Below, piece after piece: positions 25,807 through 35,732 of a stretch of DNA of 64,000 nucleotides (position 1 is the stretch's first letter; the number at the start of each line of letters is the position of its first letter). The position numbers and the translations under genes are program-made. This DNA is from Vicinamibacterales bacterium. GTDB taxonomy: Bacteria; Acidobacteriota; Vicinamibacteria; Vicinamibacterales; UBA2999. The notes under the pieces were generated by a model. It was given only the letters and a program-made list of their open reading frames with translations, was not told where the DNA came from and made no database searches. The stretch spans positions 1-64,000 of the forward strand of contig JAUXWO010000092.1 in assembly GCA_030680175.1 (NCBI GenBank), read 5' to 3'.

Positions 25807-26964
25807 TCAGGAGATGACGACCGTCCGCGGGTGCTGCGAGTTGTCCTCGAGGAACGTCTTCTTGTTCGCCAGATCCTCGAGCGTGGGCTGCACCAGCCCG
25901 TTCGCGTCCGTCACGCGTGAGACGAGCGTGTGTTCACCCGGCGTGGCGCCTCTCCAGTCGTAGGTGAAGAGCTTCCACGAGTACTTCTCGCGCGTCGACG
26001 GGTCGAGCGTCGCCGGCTGCCACGGGCCATCGTCCACCTTCACCTCGACCGACCGGATCGGCGTGCCGTCGTTCAGCACGACGCCGAGGACGCGGTGCTG
26101 GCCGCCGACGGCGGTGATGCGCGCGATGAACGACTTGAGCTGCTGGCGCGTGATGGGCTTCTCGGTCCACTTCATCTCGCCGTTGATCGTCTCGCCGCGC
26201 AGCGTGCGATACCAGCGGGTCTGGAACTTGCCGAGGTAGGCCACGTCCTGCGCGTGGATCTCGGCGAGCCACTTCACGTTCGGCGCGCCGTACCAGCCGG
26301 GCACGAGCAGCCGCAGCGGCGAGCCCTGGTGGCGGGTGAGCGGTTCGCCGTTCATCGCGAAGGCGAGCAGCGCGTCGGTGGTCATCGCCTGGCCGCGCGT
26401 CAGGCTGCGGCCGTACTGCTGCTCGACGTCGAACTTCTGCGTGCGGAACTCGACGGACTCCGGGCCGCGGTCGGCGCCGAAGAACACGACCTCGTGCGCG
26501 TCGGCCTCGAGGCCCGCGCGGTCGAGGACGGCGCGCAGCGGCACGCCCGTCCAGCGCGCGTTGCCGGACAGCCCCTGCAGCGGCCGGCGGTTGCCGGAGC
26601 ACTCGAAGCCCGCGACGAGGTCGGTCGTGCCGAGCGCGCGGAGATCGTCGAGCGAGAGCGACAGCTCCCGATCGACCATGCCCGAGACGCGCAGCCGGAA
26701 GGTGGCCGGGTCCACGACCGGGTGGCCGTAGTGCTGGGTAGTGAAGAACTGATCGGCCGGCGTGATCGGGCCCGTGATGGTGCGGACGTCGAGCAGCCGG
26801 CGGTCGGCGGCCGGGTTCGTGTTGAAGTTCTCGGGCCATTCGGTGAACGGCACGACGACTTCGCCCTGCGCCAGTGCCGGCATGGCCCACTCGGGCAGGC
26901 CGAGCATCGACAGCCCGGCAACGGCGAGACTCCCCTTCAGAACTTCCCGGCGGCTGTGGCGCAT
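25807..26964 (-). CDS. Tat-exported sulfite-oxidase-fold molybdoenzyme
   Basis: The 385-residue precursor has a twin-arginine leader (HSRREVLKGSLAVAGLSML). The molybdopterin domain follows with the molybdenum-ligating cysteine C122 in GFECSGNRRPLQG, then the C-terminal dimerisation domain (from about 285, TEKPITRQQLKSFIARI). That makes it SoxC/SorA-like rather than the shorter YedY/MsrP type. It should oxidise sulfite or a related sulfur compound in the periplasm. No cytochrome c partner is adjacent; the next gene upstream encodes a NapH-like membrane ferredoxin that could exchange electrons with it. ATG at 26964 has CAGGAGG seven bases upstream. Confidence 0.88.
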   Translation of the reverse strand: MRHSRREVLKGSLAVAGLSMLGLPEWAMPALAQGEVVVPFTEWPENFNTNPAADRRLLDVRTITGPITPADQFFTTQHYGHPVVDPATFRLRVSGMVDRELSLSLDDLRALGTTDLVAGFECSGNRRPLQGLSGNARWTGVPLRAVLDRAGLEADAHEVVFFGADRGPESVEFRTQKFDVEQQYGRSLTRGQAMTTDALLAFAMNGEPLTRHQGSPLRLLVPGWYGAPNVKWLAEIHAQDVAYLGKFQTRWYRTLRGETINGEMKWTEKPITRQQLKSFIARITAVGGQHRVLGVVLNDGTPIRSVEVKVDDGPWQPATLDPSTREKYSWKLFTYDWRGATPGEHTLVSRVTDANGLVQPTLEDLANKKTFLEDNSQHPRTVVIS

Positions 26965-27004
26965 GATCCTGCCTCCTGAAGGGGAATAGTAGATCAAGTC
27001 GAGG

Positions 27005-27230
27005 CGCGGAGGGGTCGTGGGTCGTGGGTAAGTGGGTGGTGGGTAAGTGGGTCGTGGGTAAGTGGGTGGTGGGTGGTGGGTTGTGGTCGGGGGTGGTGGG
27101 TGGTGTGTGGGTAGGGCGGCGCTGCGGGCGGGTGGCCCCGGCGCGACCTCGCCGTCCCCCCGACCCACTACCCACTACCCACTACCCACTACCCACTACC
27201 CACCCCCCACTACCCCCCCCCACCCCCCCC
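27005..27230. repeat. Family C inverted-repeat element
   Basis: The left side (27010-27110) is a run of GGGTAAGTGGGTGGT units with many GGG triplets spaced by 3-5 bases. The right side (about 27165-27230) is ACCCACTACCC in the opposite sense. It extends right up to the stop codon of the NapH-like gene. The G-rich strand is a strong quadruplex candidate. Confidence 0.8.
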
Positions 27231-28276
27231 TACGGATGCCCGAACGAGCCGGCTCTGGGGATGAGCTCGTAGAAGATCGCCTCGGGCACGTTCGTGTGCC
27301 AGCCGCCCGTCGCGCGGGCGTAGCCGACGACGCTCAGGAAGATGAGCGTGACGCCGGCCGCCACGGCCCACGCCGGCACACGGCGGCGCGGCCGGACGAG
27401 CGGCAGCGTGCGCAGGTCGAGCGCGTCCTTCACCGGGCACACGGACACGCACGTCATGCAGCCGGTGCACTCCGGCGTCTTCACCGTGCGGAGCCGGTCC
27501 ACCGGCAGCAGCGACGGGCAGGCGGTGGCGCACTTGCCGCAGTCGATGCACGAGACCACGTCACGCGTGATGCGCAACGGGCTCAGCATCGACGCGAGCC
27601 CCATCAGCGCGCCGTAGGGGCACAGGTAACGGCACCACGCGTTCTTCGTCACGACCGACAGGATCACGAGCAGCGAGGTGACGAAGATCGTCGTCCGGCC
27701 CGGGCTGCGGAAGAAGTCGAGCATCTTCACGTCGGCGACGAGCCCGTAGGGGCTCGCGAGGAACGCGCGGAGCTCCTCGGCCGGCATCCGCAGGACGACC
27801 CAGAGGAAGAGGCCGAGCAGGATGTACTTCAGGCTGCGCAGCGGGATGTCGAGCCAGCGCGGCGGCGCGAGGTTGCGGCGGAACAGCGCCTGGCCCCCTT
27901 GCCACAGCCACTCCGAGATCGTGCCGATCGGGCAGAGCCAGCTGCAGAACGCCTTGCGGAAGACGAACGAGATCGCGAGGAAGGCGACGAGCAGGAACAT
28001 CCCGGCGGGATGCACCTCGGGCAGCAGCCCCGTCACCGTGTAGCACTTCAGGTTCATCAGCGACGCGATCGGCAGCCAGCCCTCGACGCCCGGGGGACGC
28101 GTGACGTAGAGGGAGTCGCCGCCGGTCTCGAAGTGGCGGACCCAGACGTAGAAGCGCGCGCCGATCCAGAGGTTCAGGAGCAGGAAGGCGAGCTGCACGC
28201 CACGGCGGACGAGCAGCGTCTGATCGGGGGGGCGCTTGAGGTAGGCGCGGGCCACGGGGACATCTCCTGTCCCCAT
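27230..28276 (-). CDS. NapH-like membrane polyferredoxin
   Basis: The 348-residue protein has about five membrane segments and two membrane-edge motifs CSWLCPIG and CRYLCPYG, the CxxxCP pair of the NapH/RdxA family. A two-cluster ferredoxin domain near residues 235-295 (CIDCGKCATACP and CTGCMTCVSVCP) binds two [4Fe-4S] clusters. A final membrane helix follows. Such proteins pass quinol electrons to periplasmic or membrane partners. Placed between an exported molybdoenzyme and an exported peroxiredoxin on the same strand, it is a candidate electron supplier or acceptor for them. The stop codon lies at the edge of the repeat. Confidence 0.87.
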   Translation of the reverse strand: MGTGDVPVARAYLKRPPDQTLLVRRGVQLAFLLLNLWIGARFYVWVRHFETGGDSLYVTRPPGVEGWLPIASLMNLKCYTVTGLLPEVHPAGMFLLVAFLAISFVFRKAFCSWLCPIGTISEWLWQGGQALFRRNLAPPRWLDIPLRSLKYILLGLFLWVVLRMPAEELRAFLASPYGLVADVKMLDFFRSPGRTTIFVTSLLVILSVVTKNAWCRYLCPYGALMGLASMLSPLRITRDVVSCIDCGKCATACPSLLPVDRLRTVKTPECTGCMTCVSVCPVKDALDLRTLPLVRPRRRVPAWAVAAGVTLIFLSVVGYARATGGWHTNVPEAIFYELIPRAGSFGHP

Positions 28277-28324: not shown

Positions 28325-28867
28325 TTACCGCTTCGCGACGCCGAGCCGCTCGAGGGTGGCCACGATGTCTGGGCCGGCGGTGGAGGCGCTGACCTTCGTA
28401 TCGACGTGGAGGATCTTGCCGTCGGAACCGATGTAGAAGGTCCAGCGGTTGGCCACGCCCCGGGCGCTCAGCACGCCGTACGCTTCCGCGACTTCCTTCG
28501 TCGGGTTGGCGAGGATCGGGTAGTCCGCCTCGTGCATGGCCGCGAACTTGGCGTTGTCCTCTTGCGTGTCGACGCTGATCATGAAATACGCCACGTTGTA
28601 CTGCCGAATCAGTTCGCCGCTCTCACGGAGCGACTTGCATTCGGCCGTTCAACCAGCGGTGAACGCCTTCGGGAACCACGCGAGCACCACGGCGCTCTTG
28701 CCGGCGTAGTCCTTCAGGTTGTAGGTCTTGCCATCGGAACCGGGCAAGTTGAACCCGGGGGCGGCCTGCCCCGCCTGCACCGCCGGCGCCGGCGCGGGTG
28801 CCTGCGCCTGCGCCCCGAGGCTGAAGAGCAGGGCAAAGCCCGCCGTGAAAATCGACCGTAGCGTCAT
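28325..28867 (-). CDS. Exported peroxiredoxin-like protein with in-frame UGA (candidate selenoprotein)
   Basis: Two open stretches in one frame (28867-28652 and 28648-28325) are joined by a single TGA at 28649-28651. Read through, they give a normal 180-residue redoxin: signal peptide 1-22 (LFSLGAQAQ), then QAAPGFNLPGSDGKTYNLKD, then AVVLAWFPKAFTAG, the UGA at residue 73, then TAECKSLRESGE and MISVDTQEDNAKF. The UGA falls exactly at the peroxidatic cysteine position of the FTxGC motif; a second cysteine (C77) follows in TAEC. No frameshift is needed and codon use is the same on both sides. A hairpin lies at the expected distance downstream. Reading: selenocysteine inserted at 73 to reduce peroxides in the periplasm. 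Alternative: a nonsense mutation of a Cys codon. selA/selB/selC/selD are not in this window. GGAGGA lies eight bases before the ATG. Confidence 0.75.
28616..28634 (-). promoter_or_regulatory. Candidate bacterial SECIS hairpin
   Basis: On the minus strand GTCGCTC-CGTGA-GAGCGGC forms a 7-bp stem (one U-G pair) with a five-base loop holding GU. Counting the U of UGA as 1, the loop covers 25-29. That is inside the window used by bacterial SelB, whose element lies within the coding sequence just after the UGA. It would direct selenocysteine insertion at residue 73 of the peroxiredoxin. No folding energy was computed. Confidence 0.5.
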
Positions 28868-28940
28868 GTCGCAAATCCTCCAGCGCGTATCGTAACAGAC
28901 AGTCGGGTCCGGACGGGTCCGGACCTAGTACTATCGAAAG

Positions 28941-31900
28941 GTGAGCGTAAGAGCGGCGAGAGTGGCGGCCATCTCGGCCGTGGGGATGGCGGTGGCCCTC
29001 GGCCTCCTCGTCCTCCTCGTCCAGTCCCCGATCGTGCGCCGGCCGCTCCTCGACTGGGTCACCGACTACCTCGCGCGCGAGGTGGACCTGCACCTCGCCG
29101 TCGAGGCGTTCGACTACAACCTGATCACCCGCCGCGTGACGACGCGCGGCGTCACCATCGCGGCGCTCGGACACGAGCAGACGCCCATCCTCACCGCCGA
29201 CATGATCGAGGCGCGGCTCCCGTGGTCCGCGTACCTCGGGCGCATCGTCCTGCACGAGGTCGTGCTCACCGGCGGCCGCGTGACGATCGCCACCGATGCC
29301 AATGGCGTCAGCAACCTGCCGCCCAGTGATCCCGATGCGCTGCCGCTCGTCGAGCCGCGCCGGCTCGAGATCCGCGGCCTGACCGTGCGCGATCTCGACA
29401 TCGCCTACCTGAATGCCGAGAACGACGTGGACGTGCACGTCACCGCGCTTCGCACCGACCTCGACGGACGCGTGGTGCAGGTCTTCGCGGGCGCGACCGG
29501 CGAGATCGCCGCGGAGCGCGTGTCGATCCGCGTGGGGACGCAGCAGACCGCGAGCGGGCCCCTGACCGGGCGCATGGCGTTCGACGGCAGCACAGTGTCG
29601 CTGCAGGAGGTCGCGATGGACTTCCCGGAGGCCGACGTCCGCATCGGCGGCCGCGTGCTGCGCGCGCTCGATTCCACCGAACTCGACCTGACGCTCGCGG
29701 GCCTCCTGCATCTGATTCCCGCCACCGTCTGGGTGCCCCTCCCGGTCCCCGTTGCGGGCAGCGCCACACTCGACGGCACCATCACCGGCCCGCTCTCGGA
29801 CGTGGTGGTCGAGACCGCGTTCGTCAGCGACGACCTCGCGCTCGGCGATGCGCAGGGCCTCCGCGCGGAAGGGCGGGCGCGGATCACGACGGAGACCGTG
29901 GTCGTCACGCCGCTCACGCTCACGGCTGGTGCCGGCCGCGCCGAGGCCCTCGTCACCGCGCCGTTCGGCGACGAGCGTGCGACGACGATGGAGGCGACGT
30001 GGCAGGGGGTGCCGTCGGCGATCGCGCTGGCGATCTTCGAGGCGGCGCCGCTGCCCGTGGCCACCGCCCTCGACGGCACGGCCACACTGGATCTGGGCAT
30101 CGGCGAGACGGCGCAGCTCACCGCCGACATCGACGTGCGGATGCGCGGCGTGGCGCGCGCCGGCGTGCTGCCGGTGGACGGGCACATCACGGCACGCATC
30201 GCCAATGGACGGTGGCGCGCGAACGTGACGCAGTCGATTGGCCGGGCCGTCCGCGCGACCGGCGAGGTGTCCGGGGCGTACGACGCGAACGACGCCACGC
30301 AGTCCACGCTGACGGGGCCGCTCGATATCCGCGTGACGGATCCCGCGGCGCTGTCGCGCGCGCTCGCAAACGCCGGCATCGAGGTGCCCGAGATCGTCGC
30401 GACGTCCACCGGCGAGGTCTCGGCCGCGCTGCAGCTCGGTGGCATCCTCGGGGCGCCGACCGCGATCGGCACCGTGGCGAGCGAGGGCCTCGTGCTGGCC
30501 GACGTCGGACCCGCGCGGCTCAACTTCTCCATCGAGGCGTCGTCCGAGCGGCTGCACGTCGAGGACCTGCGGCTCGTCGCCTCGGACACGACGATCGATG
30601 CCGGCGTGGACATGAACCTGGCCTCCGGCGCGATTGACGGCGCGTTCCGCTTCGAGGCGCCGGATCTGCAGCAGGCGCTCGCGATGCTGCCGGAGGCCTG
30701 GCGCCCGGCTGGCAGCGCTTCCGGCACGGGCGTCATCGGCGGCACGACCGACGCGCCGCGCGCGACCGCCACCATCACGACCGGCATGCTCGTCGTCGGC
30801 GTGCAGCACGTGGACACCGCGCGGGCCGAGCTGCGGGTGTCGGCGGATGCGGTGGAGTTCGACCGTGTCGAGGTCACGCAGGGCGACGGCCGCTTCGACG
30901 CGACGGGGCGCTACGCCTGGACGACCGGCGCGTACACGGCGCAACTCGAGGGACGCGGGCTGGTGATCGAGGACGCGCTCGGGTCCGAGGCGGGGACGCG
31001 CGCGCGCGTGGACCTGACGTTTACCGGCGAGGGCACGGTCGAGGCGCCGGTGGGCGAGGGACGCGCCACGATTGATTTCGAGGGCGGCACGGCCGGCGGC
31101 CTCGTCGGCCGCACCACCGTCGACGTGCGGCTCGATGGCGTCGTCGCGCGGGTCCACGCGCATGCGCCCGGGCTCGGCACGTACCTCGACGGCACGGTGT
31201 CGCCGCTCGCGCCCTACGACTACCGCGCCGTCGCCGTCGTCGATCGCCTCGACCTCGCGCCCCTGGCGCTCGTCGGCGGCGCGCACGAGGATGCGGTGAC
31301 GGGCACGCTCAGCCTGACGGTGCTGCTCACCGGGCAGGCGAGCGATGCCGCAAGCCTCGTGGCTGCCATCAACCTGCAGCAGCTCGACGCGCTGGCCAAC
31401 GGCGTGCCTGTGACGCTCGCCGCCCCCTCACGCCTGCGCTACGACGCCGCGGGTGTGAGCGCGGACGACGTGACGCTTCGCGTGGGCACGGGGGAGCTGC
31501 ACGCGTCGGGGCGCTTCTCTGAGGAACTGACGAGCGAGTGGCGCACGACGCTCGAGGCGAATGCGGCGGAGCTCGTGACGCTCGCGCAGGCGTTCGTGGC
31601 CGTCCCTGCGGAGATCGCCGCGCGCGGCGCCGTGCGCCTCGACTGGCGGTCCACCGGCGGCCTGCAGCAGACCGAGGGCACGCTCACGCTGGCGGACGGC
31701 GCGCTCATTTACGACGACCTCCCGCCCGTGGAGGACGTGGCCATCCGCGCGACGTTCGACGGCGAGACCGTCGACGTGCCCGAGATGACGGGCACGTGGC
31801 AGGGCGGCGGCATCGAGGGGTCCGCGCGGCTGCCGCGTGCGCTGTTCGAGGACGAGGCGCCGGCCGCGGAGGGACACGGCTTCCTGAAGATGCGCCTGCG

Positions 31901-34900
31901 CGGCCTCGCCCCCGGCGCGCTGGCGCCGTGGATGGACGCGGCCACGCTGGCGCGGATGACCGGCCGGCTCTCGGCCACGCTCGACGCGGTGATCGAGTCG
32001 CCGTCGGTCGAAGGGCTGCGCGGCACGCTCGTGCTCGACGAGGCGGCGATGACCGTGGACGGCGTGCCCATCGAGCAGCGGCAGCCGTCACGCCTCGCGC
32101 TCGAGGACGGGCAGCTGCGCATGACCGAGGTGCAGTGGATGGCCGGCGGCAGCCCGCTGCAGCTCACCGGCGCGGTGGATCTCACCACGGAGGACCCGGC
32201 GCTCGACCTCGCGCTGACGGGCCGCGCCGACCTGCGCATCGCGTCGGCGTTCGACCCGACGATCGCGACCGATGGCGGCGCCGACCTGGACATCCGCATC
32301 GGCGGCGTCGCGAGCGCGCCGCTGTTCGACGGGCGCATCACGCTCGATGGCGCGGAGCTCGCCATGCGCGACCCGCAACTCCTGCTCTCGAACGTGCACG
32401 GACGGATCGACCTGAACGGCGACCGCATCGTGTTCCAGGAGATCACGGGCGATGCCAACGGCGGGCGGCTCGTGATCGTCGGCGGCCTCACCCACAGCGC
32501 GTTCGAACTGACCGGCGGCACGGTGATTCTCCAGGTGCAGGGCGCGGCGCTCGAGTACCCGCAGGGCCTGCAGAGCGAAGCCGACGCGCTGCTGCAGTTC
32601 GTCCCCGGCCCCGGCGCGCCGCGCCTGTTCGGGGACGTGCGGATCCTCCGCAGCGGCTATCTGTCGCCGATCAGCCTGCCGGCGATCATCGCCGCCAACC
32701 GCGCGCAGGCGCGGCCGATCCGGGCCGAGCCCGCCTATCTCGACACCGTCCGCCTGAACATCGCGGTCGAGACCGTGACCGACATGGTCGTCGACAACAA
32801 CTACGGCCGCTTCGAAGCCGGCGCCCAGGTCCGCATCGTCGGGACCGTCGCGACGCCGGGGATGGTGGGCCGGGCCGAGCTTCGCGAGGGCGGGCAGATG
32901 TACCTCGCGGGCAACACCTTCCGCATCGAGCGCGGCAGCATCTCGTTCATCGGCCAGTCGACGATCGAGCCGGACTTCGACATCGAGGTGCGGACGCAGG
33001 CGTCGGGCCAGGATGTGACCGTCACGCTGAGCGGCACCCTCGACCGCCTCGAGACCGACGTGCGGTCATCGAACCCGGACGTGCCGGCCGACGAACTCGT
33101 GTCGCTGCTGCTCGGCGGCACGGGCGCCGGCTTCGGGGGCGCGGATGCGTTGCGCCTGTTCTCGGCGGAGCTGCTGGGGGCGACGGGCCGCGCGTTCGGG
33201 CTCGACAGCGTGCGCCTCGAACGCGACTTCGCCGGCGACGACCTGCGCGCCGACCCCGGATTGTTCGCGGACCAGGCCGACCCGTCGGCGCGGCTCACCC
33301 TGTCGAAGCGCCTGCGGCCGGACGTCGAGGTCATCCTGTCGCAGAACCTGCGCGAGTCGGGCCTGTCGGCGATCGTCAGCTACCGCCCGCGGCGGAACGT
33401 GGAACTGCGCGGGATCACGCGCGACAACCAGGACCGCGCCTACTCGGTGCGTCACGAGATCACCTTCGGCGGCGGCGCGCCGGCCGCGGCCCGGGCGCTC
33501 CCGGAGCCGCGCGTCTCGGCCGTGACGGTCACCGGCCCCGTTGGCGACGAGGGCGCGCTGGCGTCGCGCCTCCGGCTCGGCCCCGGGGACCGCTTCAACT
33601 TCCACACATGGCAGCGCGACATCGATACGCTGCGGACGCACTTCCATGCACAGGGGCGCTTCGAGGCGCGGGTGCGCGCCACGCGGCAGGAGGACGAGGC
33701 CGCCGGGACCGTCGCACTCACCTACCGCGTCGAGCCGGGGCCGGCCACCCGGATCGAGACGGCCGGCTACGAGGTGTCCAGCCGGCTGCGCCGCGATCTC
33801 GAGCGCGCGTGGACCCGGGCCGTCTTCGATCAGTTCCTGATCCAGGAACTCCAGCTCCAGGTGAGGCGCCACCTGATCGACCGCGGGTACTTTGGCGGCA
33901 CCGTGGGCGTCGAGGTCGACGTGACCGACGACGAGACCGCGAAGGTCGCGCGTCTTGTCATCAACCCGGGGACGAAGGTCTCCGGGCACGACCTCCGGTT
34001 CGAGGGACGACAGGGCGTGGACGAGGGGCTGTTGCGGGCGGCCATCGAGGGCGCCGGGCTCGAGACGGACGGGTGGGTGACGCCCGCGCGCCTGCGCCAG
34101 CCGGTCGAGGACGTCTACGCGCTCGAAGGCTATCTCGACGCCCGCATCGACGTGGGGGTCCCCGCCCTCGACGGGGACCGCGCGGTGCTCCCCATCACGA
34201 TCGTCGAGGGCCCGCGCTACCGCGTCGGCGGCGTCGCGTTCGAGGGCGTCGATGCCGCACGGCTCGACGACGTGCGGCGTGACGTCCGGCTCGACCCGGA
34301 GGATCCGTACACGGCCGACGTCATCGAACGCGCGCGGCGGCGGATCGAAGACCGCTACCTGCGCCGGGGGTTCAACGCCGTCCGGGTCGACCTGCGCCCG
34401 GTGCTCGACGAGCCGGCGGCGCGGGTCGCGGTCACGTTCCTCGTCGACGAGGGCCCGCAGCAGGTGCTGGCCGAGGTCACGACGTCCGGCGCCTCGCGCA
34501 CGCGCGAGGGCGTCGTCGAGCGCGCGCTGCGGCTGCGCGTGGGCGAGCCGGTGGACCTCAACGAGTGGGCGCTCGGCCGCAAGCGGTTGTACGACACCAA
34601 CGTCTTCCGGCAGGTGGACCTGCAGGTGCAGTCGCTCGGCGAACCGGTGGACGGCATCGAGCGGGTGCGCGCCGCCGTCACCGTGCAGGAATGGCCGGCG
34701 TGGCGGCTGCGCTACGGGTTGCAGGTGAACGACGAACGGTTCACCGACGAAGAGGAGTCGTTCCGCGCCATCGAGGAGGCCGGCGGCCGCACACAGACGG
34801 TGGGCCTCGTCGGCGACCTGCGGAGCCAGAACCTGTTCGGCCGTGCGATCGGGTCAGGCGTGAATGCCAGGCTCGAGCCCAGCCGCCAGTCGGCCAACAC

Positions 34901-35732
34901 GTACATCGCCCTGCCCGCGCTCTTCCGGATTCCGGTCACGACGAACCTGTTCGTGTTCGGCGACCGCCAGACGTACGACATCAGCGACCTGCTGACGTTC
35001 GTGAACGACCGGACGGGCGCCAGCCTCGAGCAGCGCTGGCGCCGGACGCGGACGACGCAGGTGTCGTGGAGCTACCGCTTCGAGCGCAGCCGCACGTACG
35101 ACCCCGATCCGGACCCGAATGACGAGTTCCCCCTTGACCTGATGTTCGACGTGGCCCGGCTCAGCCTGACGACGCTGATCGATCGCCGCGATGATCCGTT
35201 CAACGCGCGGCGCGGGTGGTTCACGTCGGCGTCGTTCGAGTACGCCGCCCCGGAGATCGGATCGGACCTGCGCCTGGCGAAGCTCTTCGCCCAGCAGAAG
35301 CTCTTCCGGCCGGTGGGGCCGTTCGTGCTGGCCGCCGCGTTTCAGGGAGGGGCCGCGTTTGCCGACGACCTGATTCCGTCGGAGCGCTTCCGCGCGGGCG
35401 GCGGCTACACGGTGCGCGGGTTCGAGGAGAACAGCCTCGGACCGCTCGATTTCCTCGGCCGGCCGCGCGGCGGCAATGCGCTGCTCATCCTGAACCAGGA
35501 AGTGCGCTTCCCCCTGTTCCGCTGGGCGCGGGCCGTCGCCTTCCTCGACATGGGCAACGTCTTCTCGAGCCGCGAGGAGCTGTCGTTCAACAACCTGAAG
35601 GTGGGCTACGGCGTCGGCCTGCGCCTCGACACGCCGTTCGCCCTCCTCCGGATCGACTACGGCATCCCGACGGACCGCCGCCCCGGCGATCCGCGCGGGC
35701 GGTGGTACTTCGGCATCGGCCAGGTCTTCTAG
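28941..35732 (+). CDS. TamB-TamA (Omp85) fusion protein
   Basis: One uninterrupted frame of 2263 residues. Residues 8-30 form a signal anchor (VGMAVALGLLVLLVQSP). Residues about 40-1310 are AsmA/TamB-like beta-rich repeats. About 1310-1515 is the TamB C-terminal DUF490 domain (GGQMYLAGNTFRIERGSISF, then LSKRLRPDVEVILSQNLRES and a last strand YSVRHEITFGG). It continues directly into about five POTRA domains (1520-1915; VSAVTVTGP, VGGVAFEGVDAARLDD). The Omp85 barrel follows (1920-2263; RAGGGYTVRGFEENSLGP with the VRGF-type motif, ending GIGQVF with a terminal phenylalanine). Known TamB is anchored in the inner membrane and docks on TamA POTRA domains, so a covalent link is topologically sensible. 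Likely role: outer-membrane protein insertion or phospholipid transport. Start GTG at 28941 has a weak ribosome site. Its stop overlaps that of the convergent TPR gene. Confidence 0.88.
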   Translation: MSVRAARVAAISAVGMAVALGLLVLLVQSPIVRRPLLDWVTDYLAREVDLHLAVEAFDYNLITRRVTTRGVTIAALGHEQTPILTADMIEARLPWSAYLGRIVLHEVVLTGGRVTIATDANGVSNLPPSDPDALPLVEPRRLEIRGLTVRDLDIAYLNAENDVDVHVTALRTDLDGRVVQVFAGATGEIAAERVSIRVGTQQTASGPLTGRMAFDGSTVSLQEVAMDFPEADVRIGGRVLRALDSTELDLTLAGLLHLIPATVWVPLPVPVAGSATLDGTITGPLSDVVVETAFVSDDLALGDAQGLRAEGRARITTETVVVTPLTLTAGAGRAEALVTAPFGDERATTMEATWQGVPSAIALAIFEAAPLPVATALDGTATLDLGIGETAQLTADIDVRMRGVARAGVLPVDGHITARIANGRWRANVTQSIGRAVRATGEVSGAYDANDATQSTLTGPLDIRVTDPAALSRALANAGIEVPEIVATSTGEVSAALQLGGILGAPTAIGTVASEGLVLADVGPARLNFSIEASSERLHVEDLRLVASDTTIDAGVDMNLASGAIDGAFRFEAPDLQQALAMLPEAWRPAGSASGTGVIGGTTDAPRATATITTGMLVVGVQHVDTARAELRVSADAVEFDRVEVTQGDGRFDATGRYAWTTGAYTAQLEGRGLVIEDALGSEAGTRARVDLTFTGEGTVEAPVGEGRATIDFEGGTAGGLVGRTTVDVRLDGVVARVHAHAPGLGTYLDGTVSPLAPYDYRAVAVVDRLDLAPLALVGGAHEDAVTGTLSLTVLLTGQASDAASLVAAINLQQLDALANGVPVTLAAPSRLRYDAAGVSADDVTLRVGTGELHASGRFSEELTSEWRTTLEANAAELVTLAQAFVAVPAEIAARGAVRLDWRSTGGLQQTEGTLTLADGALIYDDLPPVEDVAIRATFDGETVDVPEMTGTWQGGGIEGSARLPRALFEDEAPAAEGHGFLKMRLRGLAPGALAPWMDAATLARMTGRLSATLDAVIESPSVEGLRGTLVLDEAAMTVDGVPIEQRQPSRLALEDGQLRMTEVQWMAGGSPLQLTGAVDLTTEDPALDLALTGRADLRIASAFDPTIATDGGADLDIRIGGVASAPLFDGRITLDGAELAMRDPQLLLSNVHGRIDLNGDRIVFQEITGDANGGRLVIVGGLTHSAFELTGGTVILQVQGAALEYPQGLQSEADALLQFVPGPGAPRLFGDVRILRSGYLSPISLPAIIAANRAQARPIRAEPAYLDTVRLNIAVETVTDMVVDNNYGRFEAGAQVRIVGTVATPGMVGRAELREGGQMYLAGNTFRIERGSISFIGQSTIEPDFDIEVRTQASGQDVTVTLSGTLDRLETDVRSSNPDVPADELVSLLLGGTGAGFGGADALRLFSAELLGATGRAFGLDSVRLERDFAGDDLRADPGLFADQADPSARLTLSKRLRPDVEVILSQNLRESGLSAIVSYRPRRNVELRGITRDNQDRAYSVRHEITFGGGAPAAARALPEPRVSAVTVTGPVGDEGALASRLRLGPGDRFNFHTWQRDIDTLRTHFHAQGRFEARVRATRQEDEAAGTVALTYRVEPGPATRIETAGYEVSSRLRRDLERAWTRAVFDQFLIQELQLQVRRHLIDRGYFGGTVGVEVDVTDDETAKVARLVINPGTKVSGHDLRFEGRQGVDEGLLRAAIEGAGLETDGWVTPARLRQPVEDVYALEGYLDARIDVGVPALDGDRAVLPITIVEGPRYRVGGVAFEGVDAARLDDVRRDVRLDPEDPYTADVIERARRRIEDRYLRRGFNAVRVDLRPVLDEPAARVAVTFLVDEGPQQVLAEVTTSGASRTREGVVERALRLRVGEPVDLNEWALGRKRLYDTNVFRQVDLQVQSLGEPVDGIERVRAAVTVQEWPAWRLRYGLQVNDERFTDEEESFRAIEEAGGRTQTVGLVGDLRSQNLFGRAIGSGVNARLEPSRQSANTYIALPALFRIPVTTNLFVFGDRQTYDISDLLTFVNDRTGASLEQRWRRTRTTQVSWSYRFERSRTYDPDPDPNDEFPLDLMFDVARLSLTTLIDRRDDPFNARRGWFTSASFEYAAPEIGSDLRLAKLFAQQKLFRPVGPFVLAAAFQGGAAFADDLIPSERFRAGGGYTVRGFEENSLGPLDFLGRPRGGNALLILNQEVRFPLFRWARAVAFLDMGNVFSSREELSFNNLKVGYGVGLRLDTPFALLRIDYGIPTDRRPGDPRGRWYFGIGQVF

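Follow-up and report, generated by a model that had tools for sequence, protein, structure and literature searches.

Peroxiredoxins with a TxxU active site are an established family of bacterial selenoproteins, for which the sections of the published surveys on which we draw give 12 cases in 2006 (PMC1794560) and 91 proteins from 78 organisms in 2016 (PMC5029168), together with experimental demonstration of a Sec-containing peroxiredoxin in Eubacterium acidaminophilum (cited in PMC13188914). The gene described here lies in a 64,000-nt stretch of a Vicinamibacterales genome (hereafter, the window), and its product shares with these bacterial selenoprotein peroxiredoxins (PF00578; COG1225, Bcp) the domain, a putative Sec in TxxU, and a SECIS element directly downstream (PMC1794560, PMC9312934, PMC13188914). 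It carries a predicted signal peptide, and for TxxU peroxiredoxins those sections, supplementary lists aside, mention neither a signal peptide nor the periplasm. PrxU of E. acidaminophilum, a strict anaerobe, is a thioredoxin-dependent peroxiredoxin that likewise contains Sec, but the window protein scores 41.6 bits against a cut-off of 270 for the PrxU model (NF040737), and we reject that identity. Every other NCBIfam model touched by the protein, including Prx-SUH, was also below its cut-off. PrxQ/Bcp (PDB 3drn, 3gkm, 5ima) and AhpE (1xvw) have the same fold and PxxxTxxC site and are among the best Foldseek matches, whereas the window protein has Sec in place of the peroxidatic Cys and a predicted N-terminal signal peptide. 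Exported Cys homologues from Pseudomonadota (Thauera, Parahaliea, Pusillimonas) and Acidobacteriota belong to the same exported family, with a GCTIECKSL active site, but have Cys for Sec, have no SECIS, and form a separate clade. The enzyme type is already known; the exported Sec branch is deeply conserved and widespread in Acidobacteriota, and it reaches the cut-off of no NCBIfam family.

The gene occupies 28325..28867 on the minus strand, from an ATG at 28867 to a TAA at 28327-28325, and encodes 180 amino acids when its single UGA is read through. Direct reading places a Shine-Dalgarno sequence, GGAGG, at 28877..28881 (minus strand), with the ATG 9 nt further on. The sequence-only reading, made from the letters of the window, had proposed an intact frame around one TGA, with the UGA on the catalytic Cys and TAEC after it, and this is what the locus contains: the sole in-frame TGA is codon 73 (28651-28649, minus strand), the rest of the 180-codon frame is open, and U73 is the last position of PxxxTxxC (P66, T70, residue 73), the peroxidatic position, in a column that is solely UGA or Cys. 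That reading also anticipated that automated callers would split the gene, and the downstream half is indeed represented only by an 89-aa ORF with a GTG start (28325..28594). ORF calling cuts the gene, and every NCBIfam model scores below cut-off; annotations of it are therefore probably wrong throughout this major environmental phylum.

The read-through translation contains an AhpC-TSA domain over residues 33-154 (PF00578, 2.2e-29), and its AlphaFold2 model (mean pLDDT 90) matches Bcp, AhpE, and PrxQ in Foldseek searches (3e-15). In an alignment of 36 sequences, P66, T70, residue 73, C77, and R141 are invariant. Cys77 (codon at 28637..28639, minus strand) is the candidate resolving residue, and Arg141 (28445..28447, minus strand) is the candidate catalytic Arg of peroxiredoxins, a role that we take from knowledge of the family. 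With its AhpC-TSA domain, predicted thioredoxin-like peroxiredoxin fold, PxxxTxx(C/U) motif, and conserved Arg, the modelled product is a peroxiredoxin. In classical PrxQ the second Cys lies at +5. The invariant second Cys of the window protein is at +4 (U73, C77; C-x3-C spacing), which places the protein outside the C-x4-C class of PrxQ. Following established peroxiredoxin chemistry, the exported PrxQ/Bcp-like product would use the Sec73 selenolate, activated by T70 and R141, to attack H2O2 or organic peroxides in the periplasm. The resulting selenenic acid would probably condense with Cys77 to form a selenenyl-sulfide, and this Sec73-Cys77 bond would in turn be reduced by a periplasmic dithiol partner.

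The pairing of U73 with Cys77 might also serve a different purpose, since UTAEC forms a redox centre of two residues and the protein weakly resembles oxidoreductases of the ResA type (38.9 bits); the selenoprotein could then function mainly in thiol-disulfide exchange, or in peroxide sensing and relay, instead of bulk peroxide removal. We regard this as unlikely, because the peroxidatic PxxxTxxC and Arg site is invariant, the best structural matches are the Bcp, AhpE, and PrxQ peroxidases, and the window protein is without the CxxC of ResA and TlpA.

A peroxidase of this kind would depend on decoding of the UGA by SelB and Sec-tRNA(Sec), directed by an intragenic SECIS hairpin, and the machinery for selenocysteine was sought in the source genome (4.98 Mb in 143 contigs, 100% complete). 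All of the components named in the sequence-only reading as a check were found there. There is one strong match to selA (517 bits, 4e-155) and one to selB (294 bits, or 321 with neighbours; 1.7e-87), both above cut-off, and the tRNA-Sec scores 64.8 bits with RF01852, also above cut-off, with the anticodon UCA as determined by ARAGORN. The selD domain (273 bits, 6e-81) is above the selD cut-off and is fused to a pyridine-nucleotide oxidoreductase; the fusion scores 461 bits against TIGR04369 ('fusion_not_SelD'), under the cut-off of 700 for that model, and Ndh-SelD fusions have been reported previously (PMC2398784).

The SECIS-like element is the apical hairpin GUCGCUC-CGUGA-GAGCGGC (28616..28634, minus strand), which has a 7-bp stem and a 5-nt loop, CGUGA, positioned 21 nt past the UGA, and a folding energy of -9.6 kcal/mol, inside the published limits for bacterial SECIS (bSECIS) elements. 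We took these limits from PMC13188914 and applied them in our own implementation as a strict hairpin test. The fold of the RNA that spans the UGA and the sequence beyond it is far more stable than those of dinucleotide shuffles (z = -3.9), with 0 of 200 equally good. Among homologues, the bSECIS model fits 82 of the 92 UGA genes, with the loop 21-22 nt past the UGA in all 82, and 1 of the 62 Cys genes, with none at the 21-22 nt spacing; most of the ten UGA homologues that fail the strict test retain a similar stem. The stem covaries, with pair 17-35 present as GC, CG, or AT, pair 20-32 as GC or AT, and pair 21-31 as CG or TA. In 16 sequences (L064 type), the stem is formed in a second register three bases later, with six pairs intact in 16/16. 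In this register the 3′ stem is shifted by three bases, the loop is 8 nt, and CTC is changed to CTG, mostly with a Gly-to-Ser change in the protein as well. RNAalifold applied to 88 distinct sequences together returned no consensus structure, probably because the two stem registers were mixed; covariation appeared when the sequences were split by register. In Rfam, all matches to the locus were below threshold, and no SECIS family was among them.

Because the hairpin lies within coding sequence, its conservation partly reflects the protein. The Arg codon in the loop is nevertheless CGU in 79 and CGG in 7 sequences (86/86), even though these genes use CGC for Arg more often than any other codon. 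Resampling of synonymous codons gave a mean z of -1.35 for Sec genes and -0.45 for Cys genes, and the z of -1.1 for the window hairpin makes the single-sequence case weak by that test. The comparative case for a SECIS element is strong, and the claim of a hairpin at the right distance is borne out by one that is conserved, covarying, and absent from the Cys homologues at that spacing. These observations also bear on the idea that the UGA is read as Trp or Cys, without selenium, through a suppressor tRNA or an altered genetic code. Such recoding would yield a normal protein, and paralogues do have Cys at this position, yet a reassigned codon would not need a SECIS hairpin, which is found in the UGA and not the Cys genes, and the genome has the full Sec machinery, including tRNA-Sec(UCA). 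We therefore reject an alternative code, which we judge highly improbable in view of the conserved UGA and SECIS.

The distribution of the UGA supports selenocysteine as well. At least 103 of 162 genomes searched in the order (Vicinamibacterales) have a TGA-containing homologue, and a homologue with a single TGA occurs in about 21 further genomes from elsewhere in the phylum. Most of the named relatives are Acidobacteriota, including some titled Vicinamibacterales, and a few are MAGs with the label Planctomycetota, Chloroflexi, or Proteobacteria. In all 92 distinct UGA homologues examined (the window gene and 91 further), the UGA is at the identical codon and the protein is conserved on both sides of it, whereas 62 other homologues have Cys in this column (TGC in 54, TGT in 8). 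Since 91 further distinct homologues have UGA at codon 73, the features of the window gene are not attributable to chance. Frameshifts or further stops in relatives, named in the sequence-only reading as evidence that would count against a selenoprotein, were not what we found; close relatives keep the frame and the UGA at the same codon. In the tree, the Sec sequences form one nearly coherent group, with 3 label changes against a mean of 48.7 for shuffled labels. Only three Cys sequences (L072, L078, and L131) fall inside the Sec clade; none of the three has a hairpin that fits the bSECIS model, and no selA match was present in the genomes of two of them (G066 and G068).

Across the 162 genomes, and counting UGA homologues among the matches listed, 97 have both a UGA homologue and selA, 6 have only the UGA homologue, 29 only selA, and 30 neither (Fisher p = 6e-11, which is only a guide because the genomes are related). 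The six UGA genomes without a convincing selA match are all 62-90% complete, and selA is present in 6/6 of the tested genomes of distant UGA homologues. A lone stop in a 143-contig assembly could be an error, but a Cys peroxiredoxin gene in decay, with its TGA due to nonsense mutation or misassembly, is scarcely credible when 91 further distinct homologues, drawn from many separate assemblies, have TGA at this codon and conserve the flanking protein, the hairpin covaries, and UGA homologues co-occur with selA, and the conserved UGA and SECIS lead us to reject the pseudogene reading. We are thus nearly certain that the gene encodes a selenoprotein, in which the UGA is read as Sec with the aid of a SECIS element, and the product is very probably an exported PrxQ/Bcp-like peroxidase. 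UGA homologues, all accompanied by selA, also occur in MAGs labelled Gammaproteobacteria, Proteobacteria, Chloroflexi, and Planctomycetota (L204, L217, L167, and L168), and horizontal transfer or mislabelled bins are possible. In some genomes a Cys paralogue lies near the Sec gene (L043/L148 and L049/L151), and two gp11 acidobacteria each have two Sec genes close together (L163 and L189).

Export was proposed in the sequence-only reading from the signal peptide, and the wider family agrees. The predicted signal peptide, MTLRSIFTAGFALLFSLGAQA (28805..28867, minus strand), was recognized in the translation by a heuristic signal test, with cleavage predicted after AQA. By the same heuristic, N-termini are signal-like in 90/92 Sec and 62/62 Cys homologues, which suggests that export characterizes the family as a whole and is shared by its Sec and Cys forms. 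Together with the machinery, the conserved UGA, and a hairpin largely limited to UGA genes, this supports the original proposal of an exported Sec peroxiredoxin, in which we infer that Sec is incorporated in vivo. Two further redoxins in the same genome, L004 (G000:C94:44336-44731, minus strand) and L005 (G000:C94:80965-81441, minus strand), have one in-frame TGA each, in a DW-U-PYC (UxxC) motif with a CAGCTCGTGGAGCTG-like hairpin downstream, and are probably two more exported selenoproteins. They resemble SelL-related redox proteins, yet score under the cut-off of that model.

Downstream of the peroxiredoxin gene, a NapH-like ferredoxin gene (27230-28276) and an MsrP-like molybdopterin gene (25807-27168), both on the minus strand, give the locus an operon-like look. 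No copy of either gene was present beside the homologues fetched, and for this reason the context was not used to assign function. On the other side, 28941-35732 of the plus strand is a single ORF of 2263 aa, in which a TamB-like domain is joined to POTRA and Omp85 (TamA/BamA-like) domains; many genomes of the family have a homologue of this ORF beside the Sec-peroxiredoxin.

Natural Cys paralogues of the exported Sec peroxidase, in some cases encoded in tandem with it in a single genome, allow Sec and Cys to be compared in the same fold and compartment, and models of bacterial SECIS elements could usefully be tested on the set of 92 SECIS sequences, with its second stem register. For the phylum, we lean toward the view that these exported Sec-peroxiredoxins constitute an unnamed clade of ancient origin that has become fixed in much of Acidobacteriota and in which reversion to Cys, accompanied by SECIS loss, has sometimes occurred; periplasmic peroxide defence in these bacteria would then be dependent on selenium.
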